A stretch of 21,175 nucleotides of DNA. Source: a virus. The DNA is taken from positions 1 through 21,175 of IMG/VR virus record IMGVR_UViG_3300037264_008944. One strand, written 5' to 3'. Below are positions 857 to 19,470 of the stretch, one piece after another. Under the pieces are notes generated by a model that did no database searches, was not told where the DNA came from, and saw only the letters and a program-made list of their open reading frames with translations. The position numbers and the translations under genes are program-made. Numbering within the stretch: the stretch's first letter is position 1; the number at the start of each line of letters is the position of its first letter.

Positions 857-1816
857 ATGTTTTCGATAGCAGGCGGTGCGATTCGGAAGGGCGAGCGAAT
901 TCTCGTCACGGGCGGGACGGGGAGCCTCGGCGTCGCGCTCCTGAGCGTCTTCCCGCGTGACGATGTCTCTATTCGTGTTCTGAGTCGAGACGAGAAAAAG
1001 CAGTACGATCTCCGTCAGCGATTTCCGGACGTCGAATTCCTCCTCGGTGACGTCCGTGACGAACGTGCCATCGATCGCGCGATGGCCGATGTCGATGTCG
1101 TGATTCACGCCGCGAGTCTAAAGTACGTTGACGTCAGCGAGAAACAGCCGACGGAGTACGTCCTCACGAACGTACTCGGGACGATCAACGTTCTTACCGC
1201 CGCGCGACGGTACGGTGTTCGCCGTTGTGTCGGGATTTCGTCCGATAAGGCACCCGCGCCGGTGAATACCTACGGGATGACGAAGGCGCTCCTCGAAAAG
1301 CTCTTCTTCGAGGCCGCGGCGATTCCCGGACCGACGTTTACGATCGCGCGCTACGGCAACGTCGTCGGGACCCGAGGGTCGGTCGTGCCGTTCTGGGCTC
1401 GCTGTCGTGCCGACGGCCGTCCGTTCCCGATCACGGACCCGGAGATGACGCGCTTCTTCTTTCCGATCGAAGACGCGCTTCGACTCATCGACACCGCGCT
1501 CCTCGTCGCGCCCGGCACGCTCGTCGCCACGGCGATGCCTTCCTGTTCCCTGATGACTCTCGCCGAAGCGATGTCTCCCCCTTCTACTCTCGCCCCCTGG
1601 GTCGAAATCGTCGGACGCCGGCCCGGAGAGAAGTCTCACGAGACGCTCCTCACGGCGGAAGAGATGCTCGATACCGACTTCCGTGACGGTGTCTTCTACT
1701 ACATCCCGGGGAAGCGCGTCCGGTCGTCAGGGCCGATCGCGTATACCTCGGATCGGGCGAGACGGCTCACGGTCGAAGAGCTTCGCCCGCTCGTTTCCGA
1801 TTGGGTGACGGTATGA
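857..1816 (+). CDS. PseB/CapD-like UDP-sugar 4,6-dehydratase (extended SDR)
   Basis: A 319-residue Rossmann-fold enzyme of the extended short-chain dehydrogenase family. Visible features are the glycine-rich NAD(P) motif GGTGSLG (residues 19-25), GDVRD (64-68), the HAASLK segment (84-89), the SSDK catalytic segment (128-131), Tyr139 and Lys143 of the YxxxK pair, and RYGNVVGTRGSVVPFW (165-180). The last is very characteristic of the UDP-N-acetylglucosamine inverting 4,6-dehydratase group (PseB, CapD, FlaA1). Such enzymes make a 4-keto-6-deoxy amino sugar, the first step towards pseudaminic acid or related sugars. No partner aminotransferase is in the window. A strong GAAAGGCGGAGCG lies just upstream, and the stop overlaps the next gene's ATG. 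The family is confident; exact product stereochemistry is not. Confidence 0.88.
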   Translation: MFSIAGGAIRKGERILVTGGTGSLGVALLSVFPRDDVSIRVLSRDEKKQYDLRQRFPDVEFLLGDVRDERAIDRAMADVDVVIHAASLKYVDVSEKQPTEYVLTNVLGTINVLTAARRYGVRRCVGISSDKAPAPVNTYGMTKALLEKLFFEAAAIPGPTFTIARYGNVVGTRGSVVPFWARCRADGRPFPITDPEMTRFFFPIEDALRLIDTALLVAPGTLVATAMPSCSLMTLAEAMSPPSTLAPWVEIVGRRPGEKSHETLLTAEEMLDTDFRDGVFYYIPGKRVRSSGPIAYTSDRARRLTVEELRPLVSDWVTV

Positions 1817-2859
1817 GTTCGACGAGCATCTCAGTCCTCGCCTATAATCGCCCCGACACGCTCTCGACGACGCTGACGATTCTCGCCCGCGTCCTCGAGC
1901 CTCCCTATACGCTCACGGTCATCGATAACGGGTCCGAAGATCCTCGCGTCGCGGCGGTCTTCCAGGAAGTCAGGAGTCGAGTTCCCGACCCGAACCGATG
2001 GTTCTACGTTCGCCACGACGAGAATACGGGCCTCTCGATCGGCACGAATCGCGGGCTCTCGCTCGGCTCCGGTGACGTCCTGATTCATCTCGACGACGAC
2101 GCGCTCCTCTCGTCCCCGGGCTGGAATCGCCGTCTCGCCGACTTCTTCGATCGCTACCCCGAGATCGGGCTCGCGATTCCCGTCGAAACGCCTCCCGTCG
2201 AGTCGATTCCTCACGAGAACGGCGCGTACTTCGAGGTCCGGTGGGGGCTCGGCTACGCCTGGGGGATTCGCCGGACGCTCTACGAAGAGATCGGGGGGTA
2301 CGATCCTCAACTCATGCATCAGAACGAGTGTGACCTCGCCCTCCGCGTCCGTCTCGCCGGCTATCGGGTCGCCGCCGTGACGGGGGTGGCGGTGCCGATT
2401 CACAACGATCCGGGAGGAGTGCGATCGGCGCGGTCGTTGGCAAGGGAGCACTTAGGGGTCGTACAGTTCAGAGATAAGTACGCGAGCTACTTTCGCGGTC
2501 CGGCGTGGAACTACGCGACTCACCCTCTCTATTTGATGGAGGCGTGGCCGCCAGATCAGGATTTCCTCCGTCGATTCGCGAAGTATCACGGCATCGACGT
2601 CAACCCTCCGCCACTCGATCCGAGCGGTCGCGTCGCCGTGAACGATCGCGGCGAGGTGACGTGGCCTCCCGGTCTGACCGTCGAGATCGCCGGTCGAACC
2701 TACCTCACGCGCCGGTGGGTCGAGAACCTTCACACGTACTGGGCCGACGAGGAGCCGGCGTACGTGCTTGATCGTCAACTCGCGATCGATCGCTGGTTCG
2801 CGCTCACCGGCGAGCGATACGAGGGCTATCGGTGGCCGTCCGGACGCCTTCGACCGTGA
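1813..2859 (+). CDS. Glycosyltransferase family 2 (GT-A fold)
   Basis: The protein is 348 residues from ATG 1813, which overlaps the dehydratase stop as ATGA. The N-terminal GT-A domain shows an IDNGSED nucleotide-binding segment (37-43), the metal-binding HLDDDA motif (92-97; Asp94-Asp96), GGYDPQL (161-167) and an acidic catalytic-type segment (Glu172, Asp174) followed by His197. GT2 enzymes of this type are inverting and transfer a sugar from a nucleotide donor. After about residue 215 an extra domain of some 130 residues, rich in Trp and Tyr, has no family I recognise and may bind the acceptor. There are no membrane helices, so it is a soluble enzyme. Adjacency suggests it may use the dehydratase product, which is inference. 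Confidence 0.88.
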   Translation: MSSTSISVLAYNRPDTLSTTLTILARVLEPPYTLTVIDNGSEDPRVAAVFQEVRSRVPDPNRWFYVRHDENTGLSIGTNRGLSLGSGDVLIHLDDDALLSSPGWNRRLADFFDRYPEIGLAIPVETPPVESIPHENGAYFEVRWGLGYAWGIRRTLYEEIGGYDPQLMHQNECDLALRVRLAGYRVAAVTGVAVPIHNDPGGVRSARSLAREHLGVVQFRDKYASYFRGPAWNYATHPLYLMEAWPPDQDFLRRFAKYHGIDVNPPPLDPSGRVAVNDRGEVTWPPGLTVEIAGRTYLTRRWVENLHTYWADEEPAYVLDRQLAIDRWFALTGERYEGYRWPSGRLRP

Positions 2860-3032
2860 CGAACGACGCCATCTTTCGTCTCGTTACTTCTTTCGTTCCC
2901 GGAACGACGATCGTTTCGTATCGAGGACATCGGTACTACGTGCGATCGATCGATAGCGCGAGTCTTCATATCCAACTCGGGACTGGGTTCTGGATTCCCT
3001 TCTGCTCTAACTCGCTCGAGGAGGTTCTATGA
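2856..3032 (+). CDS. Small unknown protein between glycosyltransferase and methyltransferase
   Basis: The predicted product is 58 residues, starting at GTG 2856 in a GTGA overlap with the previous stop, and ending in an ATGA overlap with the next gene. An upstream GTG (2832) is possible but would overlap more deeply. The residues look like a small beta barrel (TTIVSYRGHRYYVRSIDSAS, then HIQLGTGFWIPF), compatible with an SH3- or KOW-like fold, but no family is recognised. No ribosome site is visible, so translation probably depends on coupling. Perfect end-to-end overlaps with genes on both sides are the best evidence that it is translated. Confidence 0.55.
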   Translation: MTNDAIFRLVTSFVPGTTIVSYRGHRYYVRSIDSASLHIQLGTGFWIPFCSNSLEEVL

Positions 3033-3736
3033 ATCTTCGACCCCCAGAGACCGAGATCCGACGGAACGTCCTTCGTGGTCCGGCCGCGTACTCCGAGGAT
3101 TATTTTCTTCGTGGCGAGGATCTCGGGCTTTCGTGCTATACGAATTATCGCTGGATGCCGGGGACGACGTATCGAATGGCGACGGCGATTCTCGATCATC
3201 TCGACACCAAAGGGAATGAAACGTTCTTGGACTTTGGCTGCGCGCGTGGTTATCTCGTTCGCGCACTTCACGAACAAGGGTTTGAGGCGTTTGGCGTCGA
3301 TCTTTCCGTCTGGGCTGTCGAGAATGCCGATAAAACTGTTCGATCGAGGATTTCTCCCGTCTCGCTCGTTCGTGGTCTCCCCGTCGATCTTCCGGCGGTC
3401 GATTGGATCATCGCAAAAGACGTTCTCGAACACATCGAACCCGACGACCTCGTTCGGCTCCTTCGTCTTCTCTGGAGTCGCGTGAAACTCGGCCTCTTCG
3501 TTGTCGTGCCGGTCTCCGGAGAAATCGATGGTCCCTATCTTTCCCCCCGTGACGAATACGATGTGACCCACCTCGTTCGATGGCCCGCCTGGGCCTGGCT
3601 CCGAGCGTTTCTCGAACTCGAGGGTGCGTACGTTCGATATCAGTCGCGACTTAAAGGGATCAAAGATCACATCGCGGCGAGTTCTCCAGGAAGCGTCGGG
3701 ATCTTTACCGTCACGCGCCGAGAACGTAATGTCTAG
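3029..3736 (+). CDS. SAM-dependent methyltransferase, class I
   Basis: The protein is 235 residues with a Rossmann-like methyltransferase core. Motif I is LDFGCARG (67-74), which binds S-adenosylmethionine; GVDLS (89-93) has the acidic residue that normally contacts the ribose; KDVLEHI (130-136) is the post-II signature of the Methyltransf_11/23 group. These enzymes commonly methylate sugars or small molecules. A GAGGAGG ribosome site lies inside the preceding small gene. It sits between two glycosyltransferases, so O-methylation of a glycan is the likely role. The last 8 bases overlap the next gene. Substrate is inferred from context only. Confidence 0.85.
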   Translation: MNLRPPETEIRRNVLRGPAAYSEDYFLRGEDLGLSCYTNYRWMPGTTYRMATAILDHLDTKGNETFLDFGCARGYLVRALHEQGFEAFGVDLSVWAVENADKTVRSRISPVSLVRGLPVDLPAVDWIIAKDVLEHIEPDDLVRLLRLLWSRVKLGLFVVVPVSGEIDGPYLSPRDEYDVTHLVRWPAWAWLRAFLELEGAYVRYQSRLKGIKDHIAASSPGSVGIFTVTRRERNV

Positions 3737-4475
3737 GTTCGCCGTTCTGATCCCAGCGAACAACGCCGCGCCTTATATCGTTCGATCATTGACGTCCGTG
3801 CTCGATCAGATCCTCGAGCCGCCGGATACGCTTCGGATCCTCGTCCTCAATGATGGCTCCGTCGACGCGACCGATGGGATGATCGTCGCGACCGATATGC
3901 TCATGAGTTCGTCGTCCGCGTGGCCGTTACTTCATCTACATCGATATCGTCGCGGCGGTGCCGTCGCGCGGTTTTATGAGATGATACATCTCCTCGATTA
4001 CGATGAGATCGCCGTGTTCGTCGACGCCGACGACTGGCTCGCTCATCCCCGCGTCGTCGAATTCCTCGCCGGAGTCTATCGTGACAACGACGTCTGGGCG
4101 ACATACGGGAGTTACGCCTACTGTTCCGGTGATGGTCGCGGAATCAGTCAGAAAATCGAGCCAGAAAATCATACGCGACGAGCCGGATGGCGGGCGTCGC
4201 ATCTCAAGACGGCACGGGCATGGCTTTTACAGAAAATCTTCGTCTATGATCTTCAATGGCCCGATGGGACCTTCTTCGATGCTTCCGGGGATCTCGCCCT
4301 TTTTTACCCCGTGATCGAAATGGCCGGAGCGAAACACGCTCGATACATCGATGAAATCCTGTACATCTACAATCCGAGGAATACACGATCGGAAACGCAT
4401 ACGAAACAGGCGGAACAGCGTCGCGTGAAGGAATACGTCGAATCTCGCGCCCCGTATCTTACACTCGATGTCTAA
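3729..4475 (+). CDS. Glycosyltransferase family 2
   Basis: I start this gene at ATG 3729, which overlaps the previous stop by 8 bases (ATGTCTAG), because the GT domain begins at once (SRFAVLIPANNAAPYIVRSL); earlier in-frame codons would add a non-homologous leader. The product is 248 residues. NDGSVDAT (41-48) is the typical GT2 nucleotide-binding loop and VDADDW (98-103) carries the DxD metal motif. The remaining half ends with a short basic helix. It lacks transmembrane helices. It differs in sequence from the other four GTs of the window, so they probably add different residues rather than being recent duplicates. Confidence 0.86.
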   Translation: MSRFAVLIPANNAAPYIVRSLTSVLDQILEPPDTLRILVLNDGSVDATDGMIVATDMLMSSSSAWPLLHLHRYRRGGAVARFYEMIHLLDYDEIAVFVDADDWLAHPRVVEFLAGVYRDNDVWATYGSYAYCSGDGRGISQKIEPENHTRRAGWRASHLKTARAWLLQKIFVYDLQWPDGTFFDASGDLALFYPVIEMAGAKHARYIDEILYIYNPRNTRSETHTKQAEQRRVKEYVESRAPYLTLDV

Positions 4476-5184
4476 ACCAGAAAGTTTTTCGCCAAACGAT
4501 CATCTCCGTCATTTTATGTATGAGGATATTTATACGGCGCTCTCGAATGTCGCGATTCTGAGCCAAGGTACCGATCTCGAAGTCCTCGATTTCGGCTCTC
4601 GTTGGTATGGCGATGGCCGTGGCGGCTGGCAGACCTCGATGCGAACGCTTATCGAGGCTGTCGTTGCGCCACGAAACGTCAAACACACACTCGCGACATA
4701 CCCCGAATACGATATCGAATCGCTTGTAGACGTCTCCGACGGCGCGTTCGATTTCGTCGTCGCGGATCAAGTACTCGAACACGTCGAACGCCCCTGGCTC
4801 GCCGCCCGCGAGATCGCTCGCGTCACGGTCCCCGGCGGTATCGCGATGGTCGCGACACCCGGACTCTATCCGATTCATCCGAGCCCGCTCGATTGTTGGC
4901 GAATTATGCCAGATGGCTATCGTGTTTTGTTCCCGAGAACCCAATGGCATTGGCTCGTTCAGAATATGTGGGGCGATCTCGCTCGGATGACGACCGAGTA
5001 CGTCGTACATAAGGGGTTTTCCGAGGGCGCTCCCAGTGTCAACGTAGCAAAAGCGAAACAGGAGAGTTTGATAAAGCAATGTTTTTGTGGTTGTGGTGAC
5101 GTCCCAAGTATCGCTAGCAAATATGAGCCCGGAACCGACGGTCGCTACCCACTTGTGATCTGGTGGCTCGGGATTCGGCGCTAA
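4468..5184 (+). CDS. SAM-dependent methyltransferase, Methyltransf_11 type
   Basis: The product is 238 residues from ATG 4468, overlapping the previous stop by 8 bases (ATGTCTAA). VLDFGSRW (39-46) is a variant motif I in which the glycine-rich turn is shortened. DQVLEHV (100-106) and a PGG turn (122-124) followed by a beta strand match the family. The segment HPSPLDCWRIMPDGYRVLF (137-155) is typical of enzymes found in surface-polysaccharide gene clusters. The C-terminus has a cysteine-rich CFCGCG stretch that could bind metal. The likely job is methylating a sugar in the glycan built by the neighbouring GTs. Target is inferred. Confidence 0.82.
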   Translation: MSKPESFSPNDHLRHFMYEDIYTALSNVAILSQGTDLEVLDFGSRWYGDGRGGWQTSMRTLIEAVVAPRNVKHTLATYPEYDIESLVDVSDGAFDFVVADQVLEHVERPWLAAREIARVTVPGGIAMVATPGLYPIHPSPLDCWRIMPDGYRVLFPRTQWHWLVQNMWGDLARMTTEYVVHKGFSEGAPSVNVAKAKQESLIKQCFCGCGDVPSIASKYEPGTDGRYPLVIWWLGIRR

Positions 5185-5197
5185 GGGGAGGGAGAAA

Positions 5198-5479
5198 GTG
5201 TTCAAGGCGAAGAAGATCATCAATAGCGATCCTCGCGACCGTTTGAAGATGTCGAAGTTCGACGATTTGAAACTTGACGTCGACGATATCGAGAAACGAC
5301 TTCAGACGGCGGAGATCAGTCTCGCGTGGCTTGCGCCTCAATTAGTCAAGTCACTAGAGCAGCTAAACTTCTACAAGACTCGTATCGATGAACTCCTTCG
5401 ACGATCCTTGGATTCTTCGGTGTCACCAAAAGAAGAACTCGATCGTCAAGGAAAGCTGAAGCGAGAACGAAAGGTCTGA
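5198..5479 (+). CDS. Small coiled-coil protein, unknown
   Basis: The predicted protein is 93 residues from GTG 5198, which has the strong ribosome site AGGGGAGGG immediately before it; the internal ATG 5249 has none. It is highly charged with a long helix carrying heptad-like hydrophobics (DDLKLDVDDIEKRLQTAEIS, then WLAPQLVKSLEQLNFYKTRI). No enzyme motif is present. It lies just ahead of a ribbon-helix-helix-like gene in the middle of the glycan cassette, so the two may form a regulatory or structural pair. Function unknown. Confidence 0.6.
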   Translation: MFKAKKIINSDPRDRLKMSKFDDLKLDVDDIEKRLQTAEISLAWLAPQLVKSLEQLNFYKTRIDELLRRSLDSSVSPKEELDRQGKLKRERKV

Positions 5480-5482
5480 GAA

Positions 5483-5701
5483 ATGGATGAAAAAGATGAA
5501 AAAGTCGTTTCTTTGAATATGGCGTCGAAACTTCGTGGGTACCTTCTCGTTAAGATCTCAGAGAAATTTCGAGTCGAACTCGATGAAGAGGCGCTTCGAC
5601 GTGGGATTTCGACCTCTCGTTTTGCGTATGAGATCATCGAGGAGTTTCTCGCTTCTCGCCGGGGGGATATTCGTGACGGGGTATTTCCAGCTAAGAGGTG
5701 A
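5483..5701 (+). CDS. Ribbon-helix-helix-like small protein
   Basis: The protein is 72 residues. Residues 21-57 fit the ribbon-helix-helix pattern: a short strand (LLVKIS), a first helix (EKFRVELDEEALRRG), the turn GISTSR and a second helix (FAYEIIEEFLAS). RHH proteins bind DNA as dimers through the strand and often act as repressors or as antitoxins. No toxin-like partner is evident beside it. It begins 3 bases after the previous stop with only a weak ribosome site. The reading as RHH rests on pattern alone; a plain helical protein cannot be excluded. If real, it could autoregulate the cassette. Confidence 0.6.
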   Translation: MDEKDEKVVSLNMASKLRGYLLVKISEKFRVELDEEALRRGISTSRFAYEIIEEFLASRRGDIRDGVFPAKR

Positions 5702-5706
5702 ATCCG

Positions 5707-6609
5707 ATGCGTAATCGAACCGTAATGATGGCGAGAATCAAGAACGAAGGCCGCTGGATCGCTCGCTGTCTTGATCGGACCTGGCCGGTTGCGTCGACGA
5801 TTGTTCTTTTTGACGATGGTTCGACGGATAATACTTTGAATTGTGCCATAAATACGTTTATTGATGTCAAAAGGGTTGAAAGTTCCCCAGGTATCGAGAT
5901 CTATACGGGAACGGTACTTTTTGACAAAGATGTTCCTTTTTTGGAGAGACAGACGCTTCTCGGGTCGTTACACATCCTTCGTTCTCCGTTTGCTGGTGCT
6001 GTACGTCCAAAAGAACGAGTTTCGGAAATTCGAGACAAGAATCTTCTCTGGTCGTATGTCAAAGCGTGCGTCGATGCCGATATTATTCTCTGTCTCGATG
6101 GTGATGAGATGCTTTCGAAGGCGGCGATTCGTGCATTTCCTACGCTTTGCCGAGAAATGGTCCTAGAGAATTCCGGCGACGTCCTTCTCTTCCCTTTTAT
6201 CTATCTTTGGGATCGTGAAGATCGTCAGCGCGTCGATGGAATTTATGGTTGGCATGAAGACGGTCGTCGCCGTCTTCTCTTTCCGAGGCTTTTTACGATC
6301 GTTAGGCAGGATGAGCAACTCCTCTTTGATCAGCGGTTCGAGTGGTTTGGATCTCGAGGGGGGTTTCACTGCGGGTCGATTCCGAATTCTGATTTTCGCC
6401 CTCGAGCACTCGAACCGAAACGTGTCGTCTGCGATCTCCCGATCGTCCACTTTGGTTATTTCGATGCCAAAATGCGGCAGGAAAAATGGGAGTTCTACAA
6501 TCGGATCGATCCAAACAACGAATTCGAGGGGCGGTATATGCATATTATCGGTGAACCGAATCAGCACGCGCCAGGCCCCGTCGCGTTCGAGCCTTGGGAA
6601 GACGTATGA
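5707..6609 (+). CDS. Glycosyltransferase family 2
   Basis: The protein is 300 residues. I prefer ATG 5707 to GTG 5698 because AAGAGGTG (5693-5700) lies at the right distance from the ATG. The opening ARIKNEGRWIARCLDR and FDDGSTDNT (35-43) match the GT2 branch seen in LPS-core-type transferases (WaaE-like), with DGDE (131-134) as the metal motif. A long insert separates the donor loop from DGDE, and the C-terminal part is rich in aromatic and basic residues (VDGIYGWHEDGRRRLLFPR). Base composition here is visibly more AT-rich than in the first GT. It is predicted to be soluble. Confidence 0.85.
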   Translation: MRNRTVMMARIKNEGRWIARCLDRTWPVASTIVLFDDGSTDNTLNCAINTFIDVKRVESSPGIEIYTGTVLFDKDVPFLERQTLLGSLHILRSPFAGAVRPKERVSEIRDKNLLWSYVKACVDADIILCLDGDEMLSKAAIRAFPTLCREMVLENSGDVLLFPFIYLWDREDRQRVDGIYGWHEDGRRRLLFPRLFTIVRQDEQLLFDQRFEWFGSRGGFHCGSIPNSDFRPRALEPKRVVCDLPIVHFGYFDAKMRQEKWEFYNRIDPNNEFEGRYMHIIGEPNQHAPGPVAFEPWEDV

Positions 6610-6893
6610 ACCTCTGTGAACACTCGTGGCGCTGGTTTCGATGTCCATTTTGTTTCACGAACTTCTCCGAACCATGGCATCTCGAGATGATCGAGGCGTT
6701 TATTTCGTCAAAAGGGAAGAGTTTGATTATGGCAGGAGTCGCGCAGCTACAATTCATGCCCATAGTTGCTCTTACCGTAGATTCTGCCGTTAAACGTCAT
6801 CTACGATCTATCGATCGCGGAATTCGAGTTCAAGAAGAACGGCCACCGTCGATACGAATCAAAGAGATCGAAAAAAGCAGTTTTCCGCTGTGA
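6606..6893 (+). CDS. Small zinc-ribbon-like protein
   Basis: The protein is 95 residues from ATG 6606, in an ATGA overlap with the preceding GT; the earlier in-frame codon at 6594 adds nothing recognisable. The N-terminus MNLCEHSWRWFRCPFC gives Cys4, His6, Cys13 and Cys16, a plausible zinc site. The C-x-H plus C-x-x-C order is the same as in the small protein at 562-819, but spacing is much shorter. The remainder has an alpha/beta look with a basic tail. It is followed by a GTGA overlap with the next GT. Perhaps an accessory protein of the cassette; no function is established. Confidence 0.6.
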   Translation: MNLCEHSWRWFRCPFCFTNFSEPWHLEMIEAFISSKGKSLIMAGVAQLQFMPIVALTVDSAVKRHLRSIDRGIRVQEERPPSIRIKEIEKSSFPL

Positions 6894-7648
6894 TAAATGT
6901 CATTATTCTCTCAAAAACCGATGAATACCTCCTCCGGTGTCTCGAATCACTCGTTTCGACGCAATCTCCCTTTTTTCCGGGTGCGAGAATTGTCATTGGC
7001 GATAACGGACTCTCTCGACGAGGGAGTTCTCGGTACATCGACGTCTATCAGGCATGCCGGATTCGGAATATCGAAATCCTTTCGGTTCCGATTCCTTCGC
7101 CATTCGTGTTTGCCCGTGCCGTGAATCTCTGCGTTGAAACGACTGAGAGAAAAACAGATCTATTTTTGCTAAATGACGATACAACCTTCGAGTCGGAAAA
7201 TCCGCTATCGACGTTGACGGCGCTCGTTGAACAGGAACGCGAAGCTAAGATCATCGGAATGCTCAGCCCTCAGATCACCGGAGGCTGTGGGAATACAGAT
7301 CAGACGCTTCCTGTAGAACTCGGGAAAATCCGTCTCTCGGATCTCACGCTTTGTTTTATCGCAGTCGTGATTTTCCGAGACGTCTGGGATACCGTCGGCC
7401 CTCTCGACGAACGGTTTACGGGGTACGGTTTCGAGGACGCCGACTATAGCAGACGTGTTCGTGCTGCTGGATATGAACTCGGTGTCACGAGTGCCGTCGT
7501 TATTCGACATCATGGCTATAGCGATGAGCTTCCGATGCACGGAACGTTTGCGCGTGAGTATTCCCCGGAATTGATGTCGGCGAAGTTCGAAGAAGGGAAA
7601 CGAATCTTCGAGGCGAAGTGGGGCGACCTTCGCGGAGCCCCTGCATGA
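6890..7648 (+). CDS. Glycosyltransferase family 2, rhamnosyltransferase-like
   Basis: The protein is 252 residues from GTG 6890 (GTGA overlap with the previous stop). LNDDT (94-98) is the metal-binding motif, and GPLDERFTGYGFEDADYSR (170-188) is the classic GT2 acceptor/catalytic segment, including the ED pair at 182-183; His207 closes the active-site pattern. This signature is common in rhamnosyl- and N-acetylglucosaminyl-transferases of surface polysaccharide clusters. The usual N-terminal donor loop is shortened (GDNGLS). No membrane segment is present. The stop overlaps the next methyltransferase as ATGA, so the two are likely made together. Confidence 0.86.
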   Translation: MINVIILSKTDEYLLRCLESLVSTQSPFFPGARIVIGDNGLSRRGSSRYIDVYQACRIRNIEILSVPIPSPFVFARAVNLCVETTERKTDLFLLNDDTTFESENPLSTLTALVEQEREAKIIGMLSPQITGGCGNTDQTLPVELGKIRLSDLTLCFIAVVIFRDVWDTVGPLDERFTGYGFEDADYSRRVRAAGYELGVTSAVVIRHHGYSDELPMHGTFAREYSPELMSAKFEEGKRIFEAKWGDLRGAPA

Positions 7649-8190
7649 GCGTATCTATGTGGATTGAATGTCTCAACGTTGGCTGTGGCCGTAGACCAAA
7701 TGCATCTACCGATATGGAAAAGTGGCTCAATATCGATGCCGCTTGGTTTCCTGGAGTAGATATCGTGCGCGATCTTCGTCGTGGTCTGCCATTTCAGGAC
7801 AATCGCTTCGATTACATCGTCTGCGACAATGTCTTAGAGCATTTCGATAGCGAAGATGCGATTTTTTTGATTAATGAGATGGATCGTGTCCTCAAACTAA
7901 ACGGGAGGTTAGTTATTATCGTTCCACATGCGCATTCTCAAGGAGCCTGGCAAGATCCGACACATCGGAGCGCCTGGGTACCGCGTTCATGCCTGTACTG
8001 GTCCCCTTGGCTCTCGAGTTACGGCGGTCCCTTCGTCGGGATCACCGCTCGACTCGTTCCGGACCCAGATCTTGGCGATTCTGCCGTATCGATTACCGGA
8101 GATATGGAAACCGAGGCGTTTATTAAATTTGTAATGAGGAAAATCGATGCGGTAACGGCACATAGTTTATTCGGGAAGCGAGGAGAGTAG
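7645..8190 (+). CDS. SAM-dependent methyltransferase, Methyltransf_11 type
   Basis: The protein is 181 residues from ATG 7645, sharing ATGA with the preceding GT; upstream in-frame codons precede the domain and are not needed. LNVGCGRRP (10-18) is motif I, NIDAAWFPGVDIVRDL (29-44) carries the acidic ribose-binding residue, and DNVLEHF (61-67) is the post-II signature. HSQGAWQDPTHRSAW (97-111) resembles the segment seen in a group of short methyltransferases from polysaccharide and phage clusters. It is compact compared with typical 220-250-residue relatives. It is the last enzyme of the cassette and directly abuts a membrane protein gene. Confidence 0.83.
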   Translation: MSVSMWIECLNVGCGRRPNASTDMEKWLNIDAAWFPGVDIVRDLRRGLPFQDNRFDYIVCDNVLEHFDSEDAIFLINEMDRVLKLNGRLVIIVPHAHSQGAWQDPTHRSAWVPRSCLYWSPWLSSYGGPFVGITARLVPDPDLGDSAVSITGDMETEAFIKFVMRKIDAVTAHSLFGKRGE

Positions 8191-8421
8191 ATGCTTCAGG
8201 ATATCGTCCGCTACGGCCTTGCGCTCTGGCTCGCCCTCCTCCTGACCTCCGTGACCCTCGGCTCCGCGTACCTCGCCGTCTTCGCTCGACCGGGGATGAA
8301 CACAGGCTGGATTGGTCAGATCGTCTATCGGTTTGGTCAGGGAGTCATTCTCGTGACGATTCTTTTATCGATTGGTGGACTCTTTGGTCTTGGTGCCGCA
8401 CTCGTTCTCGGATCTCGCTAA
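8191..8421 (+). CDS. Small protein with two transmembrane helices
   Basis: The protein is 76 residues with two hydrophobic spans (about residues 7-31 and 48-73) separated by a short loop containing Arg, Pro, Gly and Trp. GAGGAG at 8181-8186 is a good ribosome site, and the ATG begins directly after the previous stop. Size and topology would suit a class II holin, but no endolysin is nearby and the gene sits between the glycan cassette and the head genes, so this is only one option. It might alternatively help anchor the sugar-modifying enzymes at the membrane. Function not assigned. Confidence 0.65.
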   Translation: MLQDIVRYGLALWLALLLTSVTLGSAYLAVFARPGMNTGWIGQIVYRFGQGVILVTILLSIGGLFGLGAALVLGSR

Positions 8422-8427
8422 CGAACG

Positions 8428-8628
8428 ATGGCGCGGAAGGGGAGGAAATGTCGAGAACCGAAAGTTGCCGAATACTATTCGGTCTCTGATGTCGCCGAGA
8501 TGTTGAGTATTAGTAGGTCGAAAGTTCGACTCATGTGTGAAGTTGGCGCCCTTCCCTCTGTTCGGATCGTTCGGATGTACCGAATACCGATTTTCGCATA
8601 CAGAAAGCTCTTTCCGCCGACGAGCTAG
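8428..8628 (+). CDS. Small HTH DNA-binding protein (excisionase/MerR-like)
   Basis: The protein is 66 residues. Residues about 16-60 match the HTH_17 pattern used by phage excisionases and MerR-like regulators: YYSVSDVAEMLSISRSKVRL, then a short wing (GALPSVRIVRMYRIP). There is no integrase in the window, so a transcription-factor role is at least as likely as recombination directionality. The stop codon lies inside the first of two near-identical 14-base repeats, and a hairpin follows, all within the gap before the head genes. Binding to those repeats is a testable inference, not something shown here. Confidence 0.78.
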   Translation: MARKGRKCREPKVAEYYSVSDVAEMLSISRSKVRLMCEVGALPSVRIVRMYRIPIFAYRKLFPPTS

Positions 8629-8859: not shown

Positions 8860-10260
8860 GTGCTTGGCCTTACGGCTCTCGCGCCCTTTCGGCACAACGA
8901 ACGGAGCTTTACGTCTCGTCCGTTAGTCTCTCGTGCCGCCCCGACGTTCGATGGTCTTTCCGTCAACGCCTCACTCCTGTTGAATATCGGCGGATCGCGC
9001 GAGATTCCACGGCCACAGAACTACAATATGCTCGAGCGGAAGTACGGCGTCTCCGCCTGGGTCTATATCTGTACCCGCCGGAAAAGCCGCGATCTCGCGT
9101 CGGCGCCGTTGCGTGTCTACGAACGCGGTGAATCGACGACGCTCGCATCATCTGAGTCGCCGTTCGCGTCGCTTCTTCATCGCGTCAATAGCGGAATGAC
9201 GATGTCGGACCTCATTCAGATCACGAGCCTCTGGCTCGATCTGACCGGAAACGCCTTTTGGGGAGTTTTTCGCGGACGTGGCGGGAAGCCAGTCGAGATC
9301 CGGCCGATCAATCCGTTTGCCGTGAGGATTTTCGCGACCGCCGAAGGCGTCGAAGGGAAATATGAGGTTTGGCACGAAAATCGCCCCTATCCCGCTCGTG
9401 CGTACCTTCCGGGACAGGTTGGCGACCTCATTCACTTCAAACTCCCGAATCCGACGTCCGATCTCGACTTCGCGTACCCGTCCGTCTGGGGCGTCGGTCC
9501 CCTCGAAGCCGGCTGGACCCTCGTCACGACCGAAGACGACGCCGTGAAGTGGAATCGGACGCTCGTCAAGAACGATGGTCGACCGACCGGGGTCCTGACG
9601 TCCGATCTCGATATCACGAACGTCGATGCCGATGCCGCTGCAGCGCGATTTCGTGACGTCTTCGGCGCTCCGGAGAAACAGGGGCGCGTTCTCGTCCTCG
9701 GGAAGAATCTCAAGTATATGCCGACGGCGATTACGCCAAAAGAAGCGGATTATCTCAAGACGATGCTTCTTTGGCGGGAACAGATCATCGCACTCTTCGA
9801 TCTCAATTCCGCGGTGCTCGGTCTCGCACAAGGCGATACCGGGAGGCGATCGGAAGCGGTTCGAGAGTACTGGCAAGGTGCGATTATCTCGACATCGGCA
9901 TCCGTCCTCTTGCCGCCAATCAACGAGTTTTTGGCAGCGGAGTTCGGAAAGAAATACGAAGTCAGACAAGACTGGTCGCGGATTCGTCAACTCCAGGAGA
10001 ACGAAGTTTCTCGTTCGCAGTTCATCCAGCGGTACTGGCAGATGGGGGTGCCGTTCAACGTTCTCAACGAGCGGTATGAACTCGGCTTCCCGGACGTCGA
10101 AGGTGGCGATGTTCCGTACCCCGGTGGCTACGTCGCCCTCGCCGCCGACGGGGAAGCCGTTCCTGGTGGTCCCGTCGATGATTCGGATCCCGAAGACGAA
10201 AAAGCGGCGAAAGACGTACTCACACTCGATGACGACGATGTCGATCCCGACGAAAAATGA
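8860..10260 (+). CDS. HK97-family portal protein
   Basis: The protein is 466 residues as called. Portal forms the dodecameric ring at one capsid vertex through which DNA is packaged and ejected. Recognisable family segments are YGVSAWVYICTRRKSRDLAS (62-81), LLHRVNSGMTMSDLIQI, LTGNAFWGVFRG, then NDGRPTGVLTSD and LDLNSAVLGL-type text (ALFDLNSAVLGLAQGDTGRR) before the C-terminal helices. The tail is strikingly acidic (about 436-466). Order before protease and capsid genes agrees. The start is doubtful: GTG 8860 is the first usable codon after TAG 8824-8826, but no ribosome site precedes it, and the first 50 or so residues are not family-like. Confidence 0.9.
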   Translation: MLGLTALAPFRHNERSFTSRPLVSRAAPTFDGLSVNASLLLNIGGSREIPRPQNYNMLERKYGVSAWVYICTRRKSRDLASAPLRVYERGESTTLASSESPFASLLHRVNSGMTMSDLIQITSLWLDLTGNAFWGVFRGRGGKPVEIRPINPFAVRIFATAEGVEGKYEVWHENRPYPARAYLPGQVGDLIHFKLPNPTSDLDFAYPSVWGVGPLEAGWTLVTTEDDAVKWNRTLVKNDGRPTGVLTSDLDITNVDADAAAARFRDVFGAPEKQGRVLVLGKNLKYMPTAITPKEADYLKTMLLWREQIIALFDLNSAVLGLAQGDTGRRSEAVREYWQGAIISTSASVLLPPINEFLAAEFGKKYEVRQDWSRIRQLQENEVSRSQFIQRYWQMGVPFNVLNERYELGFPDVEGGDVPYPGGYVALAADGEAVPGGPVDDSDPEDEKAAKDVLTLDDDDVDPDEK

Positions 10261-10294: not shown

Positions 10295-11578
10295 ATGAAA
10301 ACGCTTACGCCGGGGACACGTGCCGAGTTCGTTACTTTCGATCGTGTCAAGTCGGCGAATGATAAGACACGAGAGATTACGCACGTCATCACTTCGCTGA
10401 CCGTCGATCGTTCGAGTGAGGTGATCGTTCCGCGTGGCGTCGACTACAAACTCTTCTTCGAGAAAAACCCGATGGTCTTCCTCAATCATCGGAGCTGGGT
10501 CGATCCCCCGATCGGGAAGTGTCTTTCCCTCGAGTCGAACGATAGCGATATCGTCGCAACGACGAAGTTCGCAGGGCTCGATCAGCTCCATACGGACGCC
10601 GAACGGATTTACCGCCTCTATCGCGATGATTTCATGCGTGGCTGGTCGGTTGGCGTTCGCGTCAGACTCATTTCTCCGACGCCAATTCTGCCAGGTCAGA
10701 TGGGGGCGACGATCGTCGAATCCGAACTTATGGAGTACTCGGCAGTTGGGATCCCATCGAATCCGGACGCGATTAGTCGGATGTGTAAAACCTTCGGCCT
10801 TCCCCCCGGAGCGACCGATCACGATCTTTACGAAGCCGTCTATGGTGCCCAGAAGTACTGGACGATGGCTCTCAAACTCGACGACGATGGTGATCCAGAA
10901 ATCGATGACGAAGTCGAGAAGATGTGTCCGAAGGATATCTCGGTCGAAATGGCGCCGACGGATCAGGCCTGGTCGGCTCCTGCTCTCAAGGATTTCACCG
11001 AAAAGTCCTGGGACGATCTCTCGAAGACGGAACGGCGGAGGATTGCGGGTCACTACGCCTACGCGAAGTCGATGCCACCCGAAGTCTTCGGCGATCTCTC
11101 GCTCCCACATCACGATTGTAAGACCGGGAAGGTCGTCTGGCGCGGTCTCATGGCTGCCGCCGGACGTCTAAATCAAACGGCGGCTATCGGTGCCGACGAT
11201 ATCGCGATCGTTCGGGCTCATCTCGCGAAACACTACAAGGCGTTCGGGAAGACTCCACCTTGGGAAAAGTCGGCTGCCGTAGAAGTCCCGACGATCGATA
11301 TAGAAGCGATTCTCGAGTCGGTCCGTGACGAACTCCGGCTCTTTGCGCTCTCAGAGGATAAGGCAATCCTCACGCTTGCGGGAAAACTCGATTCGATCGA
11401 GAAGAATCTCGCACTACTCGACGAGAAGGTCACGAAGAAGATCGAAGAAGCGGCTCTGCCAAAGGAGAATATCGTCATCTCACGAGAGGAGAAGGTGTTC
11501 GATCTCGACGAGGTTCGCCGGTCGGTCGAGGCCGGCGTTGCGGCTGCCCTGGGGCAGGCCGTTGGCTCACGCTCTTAA
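10295..11578 (+). CDS. Prohead protease with extra domain and C-terminal coiled coil
   Basis: The protein is 427 residues, about twice a simple HK97-type prohead protease. Residues 1-165 are the protease: FLNHRSWVDPPIGK (62-75) has the catalytic-type His65, MRGWSVGVRV (114-123) the Ser118, and ESELMEYSAVGIPSNPDA (142-159) the conserved closing strand. A second domain (about 225-330) contains DLSKTERRRIAGHYA, LPHHDCKTGKVVWRGLMAAA and ARAHLAKHYKAFG-like text, a module I have seen attached to other phage proteases. The last 90 residues are a coiled coil (ILESVRDELRLF...LDSIEKNLALLDEKV), possibly scaffolding. It matures the head shell. GGGGAAGAGAG gives a good ribosome site. Confidence 0.9.
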   Translation: MKTLTPGTRAEFVTFDRVKSANDKTREITHVITSLTVDRSSEVIVPRGVDYKLFFEKNPMVFLNHRSWVDPPIGKCLSLESNDSDIVATTKFAGLDQLHTDAERIYRLYRDDFMRGWSVGVRVRLISPTPILPGQMGATIVESELMEYSAVGIPSNPDAISRMCKTFGLPPGATDHDLYEAVYGAQKYWTMALKLDDDGDPEIDDEVEKMCPKDISVEMAPTDQAWSAPALKDFTEKSWDDLSKTERRRIAGHYAYAKSMPPEVFGDLSLPHHDCKTGKVVWRGLMAAAGRLNQTAAIGADDIAIVRAHLAKHYKAFGKTPPWEKSAAVEVPTIDIEAILESVRDELRLFALSEDKAILTLAGKLDSIEKNLALLDEKVTKKIEEAALPKENIVISREEKVFDLDEVRRSVEAGVAAALGQAVGSRS

Positions 11579-11621: not shown

Positions 11622-13106
11622 ATGGAGGAGAAGGACCTGATTCAAATCAAAACTCTCGTCGAGGACGCCGTCAAGCCTCTCGTGACGAAGCTCGACGAGA
11701 CGGTAACCGCGAGTACGGCACTCGCCGATCGCGTGACGAAGATCGAGAAGACACCAGCGCCGGCACCACAGTTCATGCCGGTGACGATTCGCGGTTCGCG
11801 CCGTCTACCCGCGCTCGGTGGCGAATCCGCTCCCGCGTACGTTCGGCCGAAGTCGCTCGGCGATCGGCCGTACTCCCTCTCGAACGTGATTCGTGCGATC
11901 GTCGAGCGTGACGATTCGCTAGCGCCGCTCGAGGTCCATATCTCCGAGCGACTCAAGGGGATGCAGTTCCCGAGTACGAATAAGCGGTCGTATCTCGTTC
12001 CGCTTTCGTCTGCCGAAGACTACTTCCCTCCGAACGAGGGCTCCGAGGAGCTACGGAAGCTCCTGATCGATGCCCTCCCGGAAACCCCGGCCGATCCCCG
12101 GGAAGTCGCGATGCTCATGAAGCAGTCGCGGCCGGATATCGCGAAGGCGATGGATCCGATGAACGACGCCGCCGGCGGATCGTTTATCGAGTTCCCGACT
12201 CGCGGTGAACTCGTCGAACTCCTTCGCGCCGCGACCGTGATGGGGAAGGTCGGAGCTCAGGAAGTCCCGCTCCCGCCCGGTGGCCTCGACTATCCGACGG
12301 AGGCCGGTGCGACGACCTTCGCTCGGCGGGCGCCGGGGTCACAGACGGTTATCGCCGATTCGACTCCGGCGACGGGGTCCGTCAAGCTCATGCCCAAGGA
12401 GCTAGCCGGGATGGTCAAGATCCCGAACACGCTCATCCGGTGGTCGAACCCCGCCGTCGAAGCCGTCGTCCGGCGCGCACTCGCCGCCGATGCCGGGATC
12501 GCCTCCGATCTCGATTACCTACAGGGTCAGGGGGGGACGCTCTCGCCCCTCGGGATCCTGAACTATCAGCGATCGGTCGCCGAGACGCCGACTCGGAACC
12601 GCGTGACGCTTCACGTCGCGTCGACGACCGGCGGTAACGGCGATACGTTCACGGTCGAAGACGTACAGCTCATGCTTTCGCTCGTCGAAGAAGCCCCGGA
12701 CGCCGAGGGGCCGAACGCCTGGATCATGTACCCGAGGAAGTTCTACAACCTCGCGAACGCTCGTGCCGACGCTGTTACCGCCGCCGACGGGAAGGGTCCG
12801 TTCCTCTTCCCCGTGACGCGCGGAGCGATGTCGGGGGCGATCATGAAGGAACTCGGTGGTCTCCCGGTCGTGACGTCGACTCAGATCTCACGGACTCGGG
12901 CGAAGAGCGCCGGGCTGAACCTGACCTACATCCTGGCGGGGAACTTCCGCCGCGCGGTGATCGGTCGCCTCGGGGCGCTCGAACTCGCCGCGTCTTCGGA
13001 TGCCGGGTTCTCGCTGAACGAGACCTGGATTCGCGCGATCCTCTACGACGACTTCGCGCTACTTCACCCGGAGTCGATCGTCGTCTGTGACACCCTCGTT
13101 CTGTAG
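11622..13106 (+). CDS. HK97-fold major capsid protein
   Basis: The protein is 494 residues, larger than HK97's roughly 385. It opens with a helical, delta-domain-like segment (1-45, LIQIKTLVEDAVKPLVTKLD) and an Ala-Pro linker, then about 140 residues of unassigned sequence. The HK97 fold starts near 185 (GGSFIEFPTRGELVELLR). Familiar pieces follow: KELAGMVKIPNTLIRWSNPA (E-loop/P-domain region), LDYLQGQGGTLSPLGIL, AWIMYPRKFYNLANA, GGLPVVTSTQI and a C-terminal DDFALLHPESIVV. It assembles the icosahedral shell, and the protease next door presumably removes the N-terminal part. A strong AAAGGGGAG site precedes ATG 11622. Confidence 0.92.
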   Translation: MEEKDLIQIKTLVEDAVKPLVTKLDETVTASTALADRVTKIEKTPAPAPQFMPVTIRGSRRLPALGGESAPAYVRPKSLGDRPYSLSNVIRAIVERDDSLAPLEVHISERLKGMQFPSTNKRSYLVPLSSAEDYFPPNEGSEELRKLLIDALPETPADPREVAMLMKQSRPDIAKAMDPMNDAAGGSFIEFPTRGELVELLRAATVMGKVGAQEVPLPPGGLDYPTEAGATTFARRAPGSQTVIADSTPATGSVKLMPKELAGMVKIPNTLIRWSNPAVEAVVRRALAADAGIASDLDYLQGQGGTLSPLGILNYQRSVAETPTRNRVTLHVASTTGGNGDTFTVEDVQLMLSLVEEAPDAEGPNAWIMYPRKFYNLANARADAVTAADGKGPFLFPVTRGAMSGAIMKELGGLPVVTSTQISRTRAKSAGLNLTYILAGNFRRAVIGRLGALELAASSDAGFSLNETWIRAILYDDFALLHPESIVVCDTLVL

Positions 13107-13721: not shown

Positions 13722-14510
13722 ATGGAACGGATGAAGTACGAAAAAGGCGCGATCTGTACGATTCACCGTGGCGAAGTGAATACCGAACTCTACGCCTGGG
13801 CCTGGTCGGCTCACGTCCCGCTCGCGACGGAACCGATCGTCGTCGAGGGGTCGCATAAGGCGGAACAGCGAAACGCGTGTGTTCGTGCCGCGCTTTCGCG
13901 TGGCGCGAAGTGGGTTTTGTTCATCGATAGCGATATGGTCATCGAGATGCCCGAGATGGTCGATATCGTCATCAGGCTCCTCGATACCGAACGTCCGTAC
14001 GTCTCGGCTCGGTGTGTACAGCGTGGCTTCCCCTTTACCTGTACCACCTACCGGACCCTCACGCCACCGATGAACTATCGGCTCGTCGACGTCACGCCAG
14101 AGCATGGCGTGATTCCGGCTGCTGCCGTCGGAACCGGTTGTGTTCTAATTCGTCGTGAAGTCTTCGAGGCCGTCGGCGACCCATGGTTCGAGGTCGGGCA
14201 GATCGACCCGGAGACGGATGCCGAAGATATCTACTTTTCGATCAAGGCGACGGCGGCGGGGTTTCCTCCCTCGCTCGATTGTACGGTTCGAGTCGGTCAT
14301 CGGTTCGTCGGGGTCATGTTTCCCGGCGACGACGGTCACGTCTGGGTTCGCTGGCCCGGGTCGGAAGATCTTCGATCTCGCGTTCCGATTCGGGAGAACG
14401 AGGAGGCGGTTCGTGCGCACAGGCGACTTCGTGACGAAACCCGTCAGTCCGTCGTTTACTCGACCGATCCGGTCGGACGTAACGAAACCCTATCCGCCAC
14501 GAAAGTCTAA
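13722..14510 (+). CDS. Glycosyltransferase, GT-A fold, within the head module
   Basis: The protein is 262 residues. AEQRNACVRAALSRGAKWVL leads into FIDSDM (67-72), a DxD metal motif, and VGTGCVLIRREVFEAVG, TDAEDIYFSIKATAAGF and a late VGHRF match the catalytic half of GT2-like enzymes frequent in phages. The usual N-terminal nucleotide loop is degenerate. ATG 13722 follows AGAGGCGG at a somewhat long distance, and ATG 13731 is an alternative. Lying between capsid-associated genes, it is the best candidate for a virion-glycosylating enzyme, though the acceptor is unknown. A hairpin precedes it. Confidence 0.83.
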   Translation: MERMKYEKGAICTIHRGEVNTELYAWAWSAHVPLATEPIVVEGSHKAEQRNACVRAALSRGAKWVLFIDSDMVIEMPEMVDIVIRLLDTERPYVSARCVQRGFPFTCTTYRTLTPPMNYRLVDVTPEHGVIPAAAVGTGCVLIRREVFEAVGDPWFEVGQIDPETDAEDIYFSIKATAAGFPPSLDCTVRVGHRFVGVMFPGDDGHVWVRWPGSEDLRSRVPIRENEEAVRAHRRLRDETRQSVVYSTDPVGRNETLSATKV

Positions 14511-14561: not shown

Positions 14562-15059
14562 ATGAGTAGTCCGACCTCTCCCGATGGCCTCGTCGCCTAC
14601 GATCCGTACTCGTCGTTTATCCTGAGGAGTAGTAGTCAAGGATCATCGACGGCACTCGTCACGGAAGCCGAAGTTTCGGGGTTTGGCGGACTTCGTCAGC
14701 TCATGGTTACGCTTGCCGTCACCGCGATTACGCTCACCGGAGGCTCGAACCCGACGGTACAGGTAAAGGCGTGGCTTCAGCGATCGCCCGACGGAGTGAA
14801 CTGGGACGATTTCCTTTCTTTTCTAACAGCGGCGCTCGTACACGGGAATGCTGCCGTCTATCATCTCGGCGAGGTGAATTCTCGGAGTCAAACCGGCGGT
14901 GTCCCGGCGGTCCTTCAAGATGCCGGTGGATCTCCGCCGTTCGCTCAGCGAGGACCCGGGATCTCGGATAAACTTCGTCTGAAATGGCAACTCGTCCTGA
15001 CGGGATCTCCGACGGTCGTTGCCGTCACGTTCGGTGTTACCGCGCGAGGGCGGCCATAG
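14562..15059 (+). CDS. Beta-rich virion protein, unknown
   Basis: The protein is 165 residues with a good GGAGAAGGA site. After a Ser/Tyr-rich start, alternating strands follow: LRQLMVTLAVTAITLTGGSN, VQVKAWLQRSPDGVNWDDF, then LRLKWQLVLTGSPTVVAVTF. This is the usual look of a phage beta-sandwich of the type found in head fibres, decoration or neck proteins. No cysteine, signal peptide or membrane span is seen. It is placed between the glycosyltransferase and the connector. I do not recognise an exact family. Confidence 0.68.
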   Translation: MSSPTSPDGLVAYDPYSSFILRSSSQGSSTALVTEAEVSGFGGLRQLMVTLAVTAITLTGGSNPTVQVKAWLQRSPDGVNWDDFLSFLTAALVHGNAAVYHLGEVNSRSQTGGVPAVLQDAGGSPPFAQRGPGISDKLRLKWQLVLTGSPTVVAVTFGVTARGRP

Positions 15060-15063
15060 GACG

Positions 15064-15762
15064 ATGGGACGAATCATCACGCTCGCCGATCTCGCCCTCG
15101 AAGGGATCGAGGGTGATGAAGGGCGTCTCGAAGTCCTCATCGGAAAGGCCGAGGCGTTCATCGAACATCAGACGGGGTTTCGGTTCTATAGTCACGCGGA
15201 AACCTACGTTCTCGATGGGAATGGTGCCGAAGTCATCGTTCTCCCTCAGCCGGTGATTTCGCTCTCGAGTATCTCGGAAGACGGGACGCTTTTGACTTCC
15301 GACGATTACATCCTCTACAATCGTCGGGTGCCGGGACTCGATGATCGTCACTATCCACGAATCGCGAAAGTGAGTCCATCGAGCGCGTTTGATGCCGAAG
15401 GGGTTCTTGCCCAGGGCGCTACGTGGTCGTCGGAACGTAAAGCGATAAGTCTCGTCGGAACGTTCGGCTTCACCGATCTCGTTGGCACCGCCGAGGTCGC
15501 GCCGCTTGAAATACAGCATCTCGCGATTCGTCTCGTCGGACATCTTTTTCCGCGCGTCGGTCCCGATGAGGAAGAAGCGGGACGTCGTATTCGGAGGTTT
15601 GTTTCCGAAGTCGGTGGCGATCGTTCGATTTCTGCCGTCCTTAGCGATAAGGCGAATTCGAATGGACCGACTGGCGATATCGATATCGATGACGTGCTTT
15701 TACGTTATCGCCATCCTCTAACGGGTGGTCCGAAACTCGTTCTCGCGTTCGGTGGCGCCTGA
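15064..15762 (+). CDS. Head-tail connector protein (HK97 gp6-like)
   Basis: The protein is 232 residues. ATG 15064 is chosen because the family text starts there: IITLADLALEGIEGDEGRLEVLIGKAEAFIEHQTGF, with the helical N-terminus and then the ETYVLDGNG, IVLPQPVISLSSIS strand pattern of the gp6/Phage_connect_1 adaptor group. These form a ring below the portal. The late segment has an Asp-rich IDIDDVLLRYRH. The overall length is about double that of small gp6 proteins, suggesting an added C-terminal region. The stop overlaps the next start by one base (TGATG). The family assignment rests on pattern and order. Confidence 0.78.
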   Translation: MGRIITLADLALEGIEGDEGRLEVLIGKAEAFIEHQTGFRFYSHAETYVLDGNGAEVIVLPQPVISLSSISEDGTLLTSDDYILYNRRVPGLDDRHYPRIAKVSPSSAFDAEGVLAQGATWSSERKAISLVGTFGFTDLVGTAEVAPLEIQHLAIRLVGHLFPRVGPDEEEAGRRIRRFVSEVGGDRSISAVLSDKANSNGPTGDIDIDDVLLRYRHPLTGGPKLVLAFGGA

Positions 15763-16809: not shown

Positions 16810-16814
16810 GAGTT

Positions 16815-18472: not shown

Positions 18473-18487
18473 TCGGAATGTATCTCG

Positions 18488-19012: not shown

Positions 19013-19028
19013 GGAGAGGGACTCCCTG

Positions 19029-19466: not shown

Positions 19467-19470
19467 AGCG

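Follow-up and report, generated by a model that had tools for sequence, protein, structure and literature searches.

Why would a phage carry a run of sugar-modifying genes immediately in front of its head genes? The locus lies within a window of 21,175 nucleotides, the whole stretch that we analysed (IMG/VR record IMGVR_UViG_3300037264_008944). From 857 to 8190, all on the plus strand, it holds one dehydratase, four GT-A glycosyltransferase (GT1-GT4) and three class-I methyltransferase (MT1-MT3) genes. Between most adjacent genes there is an overlap of 4-31 bases or a gap of 0-13. A sequence-only reading had proposed this unidirectional, overlapping set, and coordinates, profiles and conserved gene order agree with it: every feature was present, on a single strand, where that reading had placed it. 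The starts of GT1 and GT2 are better set at ATG 1813 and ATG 3729. The genes follow in this order (L numbers denote IMG/VR phages discussed below):

857-1816, plus strand: NAD-dependent UDP-sugar 4,6-dehydratase of the PseB/FnlA/CapE group (PF02719, 1.5e-68)
1813-2859, plus strand: GT1, GT-A glycosyltransferase with a DDD motif and a conserved extension at the C-terminus (PF00535, 6.5e-15)
2832-3032, plus strand: small ORF, doubtful, weak support, no family in Pfam or PHROG
3029-3736, plus strand: MT1, class-I SAM methyltransferase (PF13489, 2.2e-9; phrog_27380, 5.8e-20)
3729-4475, plus strand: GT2, GT-A glycosyltransferase (PF00535, 5.1e-12; 44% homologue at the equivalent position in L025)
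4468-5184, plus strand: MT2, class-I SAM methyltransferase (PF08241, 5.2e-10; 49% homologue in L025)
5198-5479, plus strand: small ORF at a module boundary, coiled-coil-like by eye, no family
5483-5701, plus strand: small ORF, possibly ribbon-helix-helix-like (phrog_25971, 3.8e-5, a family of unknown function)
5698-6609, plus strand: GT3, GT-A glycosyltransferase (GT-A fold in two models; conserved homologues)
6594-6893, plus strand: small ORF, doubtful, weak support, no NCBIfam match
6890-7648, plus strand: GT4, GT7C/galactosyltransferase-like glycosyltransferase (phrog_29879 galactosyl transferase, 4.1e-9; phrog_2456, 1.6e-6)
7618-8190, plus strand: MT3, class-I SAM methyltransferase (PF08241, 6e-9; 42.5% homologue following GT4 in L014)

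Profile searches for each enzyme gave matches for the dehydratase, GT1, GT2 and the methyltransferases, while GT3 and GT4 fell below Pfam cut-offs and were upheld by other evidence. The dehydratase shares its fold family and motifs with the PseB/FnlA/CapE UDP-GlcNAc 4,6-dehydratases. TGGTGSLG at 18, SDK at 129-131 and Y139 in YGMTK correspond to the nucleotide-binding and D-K...Y catalytic residues of extended SDR enzymes, and PDB searches returned Cap8E (1.4e-57) and FlaA1 (7e-52). The NCBIfam PseB and FnlA models matched at 4.7e-70 and 2.7e-58, far below their equivalog cut-offs (236 bits versus 407.75 and 197.5 versus 730), which places the assignment at the level of the group. Homologues 48-56% identical occur in L014, L019 and L022/L025. 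MT1, MT2 and MT3 all exceed Pfam methyltransferase cut-offs, and equivalent cassettes carry sugar O-methyltransferase families (RMNT_CmcI, 4.6e-42, in L014; TylF, 1.7e-87, in L005).

GT1 and GT2 pass the PF00535 gathering score and contain an acidic DxD motif; GT1 has full-length homologues of 42-46% in L014, L019 and L022. Neither GT3, GT4 nor GT5, a further glycosyltransferase described below, reaches a Pfam gathering score, and their assignments draw on PHROGs and homologues, with fold as additional evidence for GT3. The closest solved relatives of GT3 (Pfam match 0.011, under cut-off) are peptide and protein glycosyltransferases. SunS was the best Foldseek match (2.9e-9 and 2.1e-7 for the two models), and profile A5 returned GmaR (6.1e-5) and the ThuS entry 7msk (1.4e-4). 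Structural similarity is weak (TM about 0.44-0.50, with an LPS fucosyltransferase also matched), and identity to SunS/ThuS and GmaR is 12-16% across the GT-A core at a TM of at most about 0.5. Homologues of GT3 (40-44%) are found in L003 and L014, followed in both by homologues of GT4 (36-41%), which itself matches PF02709 (GT7C) at 0.0011, under cut-off.

Enzymes of these types raise the possibility that the cassette alters a polymer on the host surface, such as LPS, capsule or teichoic acid, perhaps to prevent superinfection or aid progeny release. Bacterial O-antigen and EPS loci typically hold GT2-family glycosyltransferases, a PF02719 dehydratase and O-methyltransferases, and homologues of MT3, GT4 and GT3 are also neighbours in Terriglobia genomes, away from phage genes. 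Serotype-converting phages are known and also appear in PMC12619734. The machinery for such a role is missing from the window, as the sequence-only reading had noted for flippase, polymerase and lipid-carrier genes: ORF, Pfam and PHROG searches of this incomplete 21 kb fragment, outside which lipid-carrier genes could lie, revealed none of these. The same holds within the fragment for the initiating lipid-phosphate glycosyltransferase and flippase or ABC exporter of Wzy- or ABC-type pathways, for acyltransferases, and for the GtrA/GtrB pair and multi-pass glycosyltransferase of GtrAB-type systems, whose nearest signal was a weak match of GT2 to phrog_22739 (0.021). No glycosyltransferase has a convincing membrane anchor, GT4 showing one borderline hydrophobic stretch. 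Together with the position of the genes inside a head block, these features make remodelling of a host polymer unlikely.

Directly downstream, on the same strand, the cassette runs into the portal, protease and capsid genes, and the head operon contains a fifth glycosyltransferase that had been overlooked:

8860-10260, plus strand: portal protein (phrog_2662, 1.7e-40)
10295-11578, plus strand: head maturation protease (phrog_80, 3.3e-11; phrog_617, 3.3e-12)
11622-13106, plus strand: HK97-type major capsid protein (phrog_10, 4.9e-24)
13722-14510, plus strand: GT5, glycosyltransferase within the head operon (phrog_34859, 4.1e-5)
15019-15762, plus strand: head-tail adaptor (phrog_442, 7.3e-17)

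GT5 thus lies downstream of the major capsid gene and upstream of the adaptor gene, an arrangement that fits poorly with a host-polymer role. It matches annotated phage glycosyltransferases by tblastn (2e-9) and has a blastp match at 1e-15, and its homologues in two other phages occupy the equivalent place (capsid, small gene, glycosyltransferase, tail tubular A). The major capsid protein has no obvious Ser/Thr-rich acceptor tail.

Decoration could instead fall on a tail-associated protein, such as a subunit of the tail tube or of a fibre. In mycobacterial phages both capsid and tail tube are glycosylated (PMC12363180; PMC12619734), and structural-region genes of unknown role follow at 16327-21054. 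Among 250 Terriglobia genomes, three carry the GT3-GT4-MT3 homologue set, and one of these three loci adjoins the sheath genes of a contractile injection system. Since the other two do not, we rejected a general link of the set to such systems. The cassette and GT5 flank head genes specifically, and we judge a tail target improbable.

We then asked whether the arrangement recurs. Scanning viral contigs with single sequences of capsid, portal, GT4 and GT5 found no relatives, whereas alignment queries recovered more; among isolated phages, GT1 and GT3 had no matches. The IMG/VR phages L025/L022, L014/L011, L003/L002 and L019 each carry a different selection of genes directly homologous to those for the window enzymes, in partly shared order, and to our knowledge these cassettes are undescribed. 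L025, a related metagenomic phage, carries dehydratase-GT1-MT1-GT2-MT2 homologues (42-56%; MT1, 51%, at the equivalent position) in the same order. Its GT1 and MT1 matches lie 27 bases apart where the window has the small ORF 2832-3032. The set is kept with terminase, portal (45% identical) and protease (58%), and glycan and head genes have diverged to a similar extent. In L014, whose head genes are unrelated, dehydratase-GT1 and then GT3-GT4-MT3 appear in the same order right after the portal, with GT-B, CmcI-type methyltransferase and HNH-like genes that the window lacks; one HNH-like gene (ORF 9480-10004) takes the position of the small ORF 6594-6893. L003, of the same lineage as L014 and also with unrelated head genes, has GT3-GT4 alone in that position.

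Because L025 carries the 5' set while L014 and L003 carry dehydratase-GT1 and GT3-GT4-MT3 in different combinations, the cassette, judged by sequence comparison, is two modules with a boundary near 5190. The gene set proposed by the sequence-only reading stands, but not as the single unit it described. A drop in GC across about 5000-8500 coincides with this boundary and might suggest a recently acquired, functionless or chimerically assembled block of bacterial sugar genes. Yet L025, an independent contig from this lineage, also links the 5' module to these head genes, which contradicts a chimera for 857-5184 and indicates that the set was inherited with the head genes. The overlapping frames are intact, catalytic motifs are kept and gene order is conserved in unrelated phages, and we give this explanation almost no weight.

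The exception to head linkage is L019, where dehydratase-GT1 lies among replication genes and was not seen beside head genes. This placement would suit glycosylation of modified bases in phage DNA as a defence against restriction, and phage glycosyltransferases can hypermodify DNA (reference cited in PMC12619734). No hydroxymethylase, DNA kinase or thymidylate-synthase-like gene was recognised within the window, a fragment beyond which DNA-modification and lysogeny genes could lie. Three methyltransferases and a UDP-sugar dehydratase fit this role badly, as do the peptide- and protein-directed relatives of GT3, and we consider it very unlikely.

Decoration of the virion has a precedent in mycobacteriophages. 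Virion proteins of Corndog and Che8 are reported to be glycosylated (Freeman et al. 2023, cited by PMC12363180). Cluster O phages (Corndog gp35-gp38; Wildflower 33-36), compared here through Wildflower, which has the same arrangement as Corndog, encode portal-MT-GT-GT-GT-protease-capsid in overlapping genes, and glycosylated capsids are reported in this cluster. Like the window phage, they place several glycosyltransferases and a methyltransferase inside the head block. Their cassette differs in following the portal and in having one methyltransferase, three glycosyltransferases and no sugar-nucleotide dehydratase. Che8 (cluster F) also encodes glycosyltransferases for capsid glycosylation (gp108-gp110), but at the right genome end and with no methyltransferase among annotated neighbours. 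Blastp, phmmer and hhalign detected no orthology of the window enzymes with Wildflower 34-36 or Che8 gp108-gp110, returning generic or short partial similarity; the best cluster O match was GT1 with Wildflower 35 (hhalign probability 92.8% over 92 columns, generic GT-A), and GT3 resembled Che8 gp108 weakly (4e-4 over 52 residues). The window locus is most likely a larger variant of the mycobacteriophage strategy, built from exchangeable parts common to unrelated phages.

The position before the portal, GT5 in the head operon, head linkage in relatives and the cluster O counterpart lead us to conclude that the cassette and GT5 are probably a late, phage-encoded virion-glycosylation system. Of the two fates that the sequence-only reading had entertained, a methylated glycan on the particle is thus favoured over an altered host polymer. 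The explanation that appears best is that an O-methylated oligosaccharide is assembled in the cytoplasm, independently of lipid carriers, on one or more virion proteins. The identities, order, head linkage, conservation and modularity of the genes are what the data show; which protein is modified, with which sugar, when, by what sequence of steps and to what advantage is inferred. The dehydratase would act on a UDP-HexNAc, probably UDP-GlcNAc, and yield a 4-keto-6-deoxy sugar nucleotide that host enzymes perhaps complete. Within the cytoplasm, one glycosyltransferase would then place the first sugar on a head or head-tail protein, GT3 being a candidate for its relation to peptide and protein glycosyltransferases and GT5 for its place beside the capsid gene. 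The remaining glycosyltransferases may extend the chain stepwise by single sugars, with MT1, MT2 and MT3 O-methylating them to leave a methylated oligosaccharide on the particle. Reading of the glycan genes together with the head genes would place glycan synthesis at the time of virion assembly. Its likely benefit is an altered particle surface, affecting protection, adsorption or aggregation.

A more specific proposal is possible, though we lean against it in full: dehydratase-GT1-MT1-GT2-MT2 and GT3-GT4-MT3 would be exchangeable modules of a widespread, hitherto undescribed 'plug-in' set beside the portals of unrelated tailed phages, accompanied by a glycosyltransferase at the capsid-adaptor junction, and would build a multiply O-methylated glycan containing a 6-deoxy- or keto-sugar on the capsid. 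Sugars would pass one after another straight to the protein, and GT3 would start the chain as a protein-initiating enzyme like SunS or GmaR.

Direct demonstrations of virion glycosylation come from only a few phages, most of them mycobacterial. If our reading is right, the phenomenon extends beyond the mycobacterial group to uncultured phages, here in a pathway equipped with a sugar-nucleotide enzyme of its own and three methyltransferases. Glycan genes move as modules among phages with unrelated heads, so the role of the glycan for the free particle becomes testable through comparison of relatives.

The cassette at 857-8190 contains all of the genes named in the sequence-only reading, on the plus strand and in the order proposed there, with neighbours mostly overlapping by 4-31 bases or lying 0-13 bases apart. 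Its enzymes precede a set of head genes.

Cassette enzymes (plus strand) and head block of the window
857-1816, dehydratase
1813-2859, glycosyltransferase (GT) 1
3029-3736, methyltransferase (MT) 1
3729-4475, GT2
4468-5184, MT2
5698-6609, GT3
6890-7648, GT4
7618-8190, MT3
8860-10260, portal, HK97-type head block
10295-11578, protease, HK97-type head block
11622-13106, major capsid, HK97-type head block
15019-15762, head-tail adaptor, HK97-type head block

The UDP-sugar dehydratase-like gene stood firm: it matches PF02719 (1.5e-68) and, in the PDB, Cap8E and FlaA1, and its TGGTGSLG, SDK and YGMTK motifs are all intact. It scores below the PseB and FnlA equivalog cut-offs, so family score does not fix its exact product. 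As proposed, all three MTs are methyltransferases; they belong to class I and exceed the Pfam cut-offs. Two of the four GT assignments rest on PF00535 (GT1 and GT2, for which ATG 1813 and ATG 3729 are the better starts); GT3 and GT4 miss the Pfam cut-offs and are carried by homologues and fold (GT3) or by PHROGs and homologues (GT4). Two of the proposed small genes, 2832-3032 and 6594-6893, match no family and may be spurious.

The window's methyltransferases match general profiles only. Equivalent cassettes encode sugar O-methyltransferase families (RMNT_CmcI, 4.6e-42, in viral contig L014; TylF, 1.7e-87, in bacterial locus L005), which makes sugar O-methylation the best inference for them. 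The GT3 profile matches GmaR (6.1e-5) and ThuS (7msk, 1.4e-4) in the PDB, and for both of two GT3 models (pLDDT 59 and 73) Foldseek ranks SunS, a peptide S-glycosyltransferase, first (2.9e-9 and 2.1e-7), but with TM-scores of only 0.44-0.50. Since an LPS fucosyltransferase scores nearly level with SunS, these matches are suggestive of a protein acceptor.

Metagenomic relatives indicate that the cassette has two parts. The independent 18.5 kb contig L025 belongs to the window's own lineage, as its portal and protease are 45% and 58% identical to the window's. Its dehydratase (56%), GT1 (42%), MT1 (51%), GT2 (44%) and MT2 (49%) genes keep the window's order and are followed by terminase and portal. 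Glycan and head genes have diverged similarly, as expected for joint inheritance, and the shared order and head genes rule out chimeric assembly of the 5' part. GT3-GT4-MT3 take the place of the L025 terminase in the window, where no terminase gene was seen; at about 5000-8000, GC drops from 55-63% to 48-51% and third-position GC from 0.58-0.77 to 0.45-0.56. In our reading, the cassette consists of module A (857-5184), common to this lineage, and module B (5698-8190), common to L014 and, in part, L003. The window is an IMG/VR virus record of 21,175 bases; such records may be fragments, and the phage's terminase probably lies outside this one.

L014 and L003 represent another lineage: between the two, terminase, portal and protease share 54-58% identity, with no blast match to the window's, and the L003 head protein is phrog_3990, not phrog_10. 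In L014 (cassette also in L011), the portal is followed directly by a GT, dehydratase (50%) and GT1 (44%); more GT and methyltransferase genes come next, then GT3 (44%), which an HNH-like gene separates from GT4 (36%) and MT3 (42.5%). L003 (counterpart also in L002) has GT3 and GT4 adjacent, immediately after portal. L012 and L013 hold more GT/MT sets close to head genes; in L019, methyltransferase-dehydratase-GT1 sits among replication genes. HNH-like or homing-type genes, recognized by eye, lie between L014 cassette genes (5391-5633, 9480-10004, 12299-12934) and are a possible vehicle for cassette shuffling. By appearance, L014 1-732 is an intein or homing insertion in terminase.

By portal and capsid, the nearest isolated relatives are <30% identical, placing the window phage in a lineage without close cultured members. 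We found no tRNA in the window. A small excisionase/MerR-like HTH gene near portal (8428-8628; 35% match at L003 13892-14047) could regulate the block. The C-terminal domains of two structural-region genes without assigned function, 16327-16809 and 17354-18472, are paralogous to each other (35% over 117 residues).

A fifth glycosyltransferase, GT5 (13722-14510), missing from the earlier reading, lies inside the head operon between capsid and adaptor genes, flanked on each side by one small gene. It is similar to glycosyltransferase PHROGs (4.1e-5). In the phage collection, its nearest homologues (blastp 1e-15) come from two Manatee Spring phages, whose head set is a different one and where they occupy the equivalent site: capsid, small gene, GT, tail tubular protein A (annotated as such in one of the two).

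Bacterial homologues were also found. A Terriglobia genome carries MT3, GT4, GT3 and GT1 homologues downstream of a contractile injection system. Among 250 Terriglobia genomes, three carry the set and only one of these has it near sheath genes; with the link to injection systems confined to this single case, we rejected it as general. That locus (MAG contig JAIQGL010000013.1, ~79000-108500; L028, L005) encodes two sheath proteins, CIS_tube, Phage_base_V, Baseplate_J and Tail_P2_I, then, on the same strand, GT/MT/TylF genes with homology to those of the phage cassette, and may specify a glycosylated phage-tail-like particle. In bacterial sequence L007 (9514-14781), one 1755-residue protein contains stretches similar to GT3, GT1, MT1, MT2 and MT3.

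The sequence-only reading had left two destinations for the sugar, the virion or a host polymer. As it noted, lipid-carrier, flippase and polymerase genes are absent from the window; the GTs have no convincing membrane segments (GT4 has one borderline stretch). Together with the head-gene position, these absences favour a route in which sugars are added directly, one step at a time, to a virion protein, which would occur in the cytoplasm. The cassette thus probably builds a virion glycan; modification of a host polymer, the main rival, is unlikely. The window encodes no aminotransferase or reductase partner for the dehydratase, so its keto sugar would be used as such or finished by host enzymes.

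Glycosylated proteins are reported for mycobacteriophages Che8, Corndog and Myrna (Freeman et al. 2023, as cited in PMC12363180 and PMC12619734). In cluster O mycobacteriophages, portal, O-methyltransferase, three GT, protease and capsid genes are consecutive, and the 2015 authors proposed that the capsid bears a complex methyl and glycan modification. Tests for orthology between the window's enzymes and those of Che8 and cluster O (represented by Wildflower) found none. The window set would work like the cluster O system, but as a separate, larger assembly with a sugar-nucleotide enzyme of its own.
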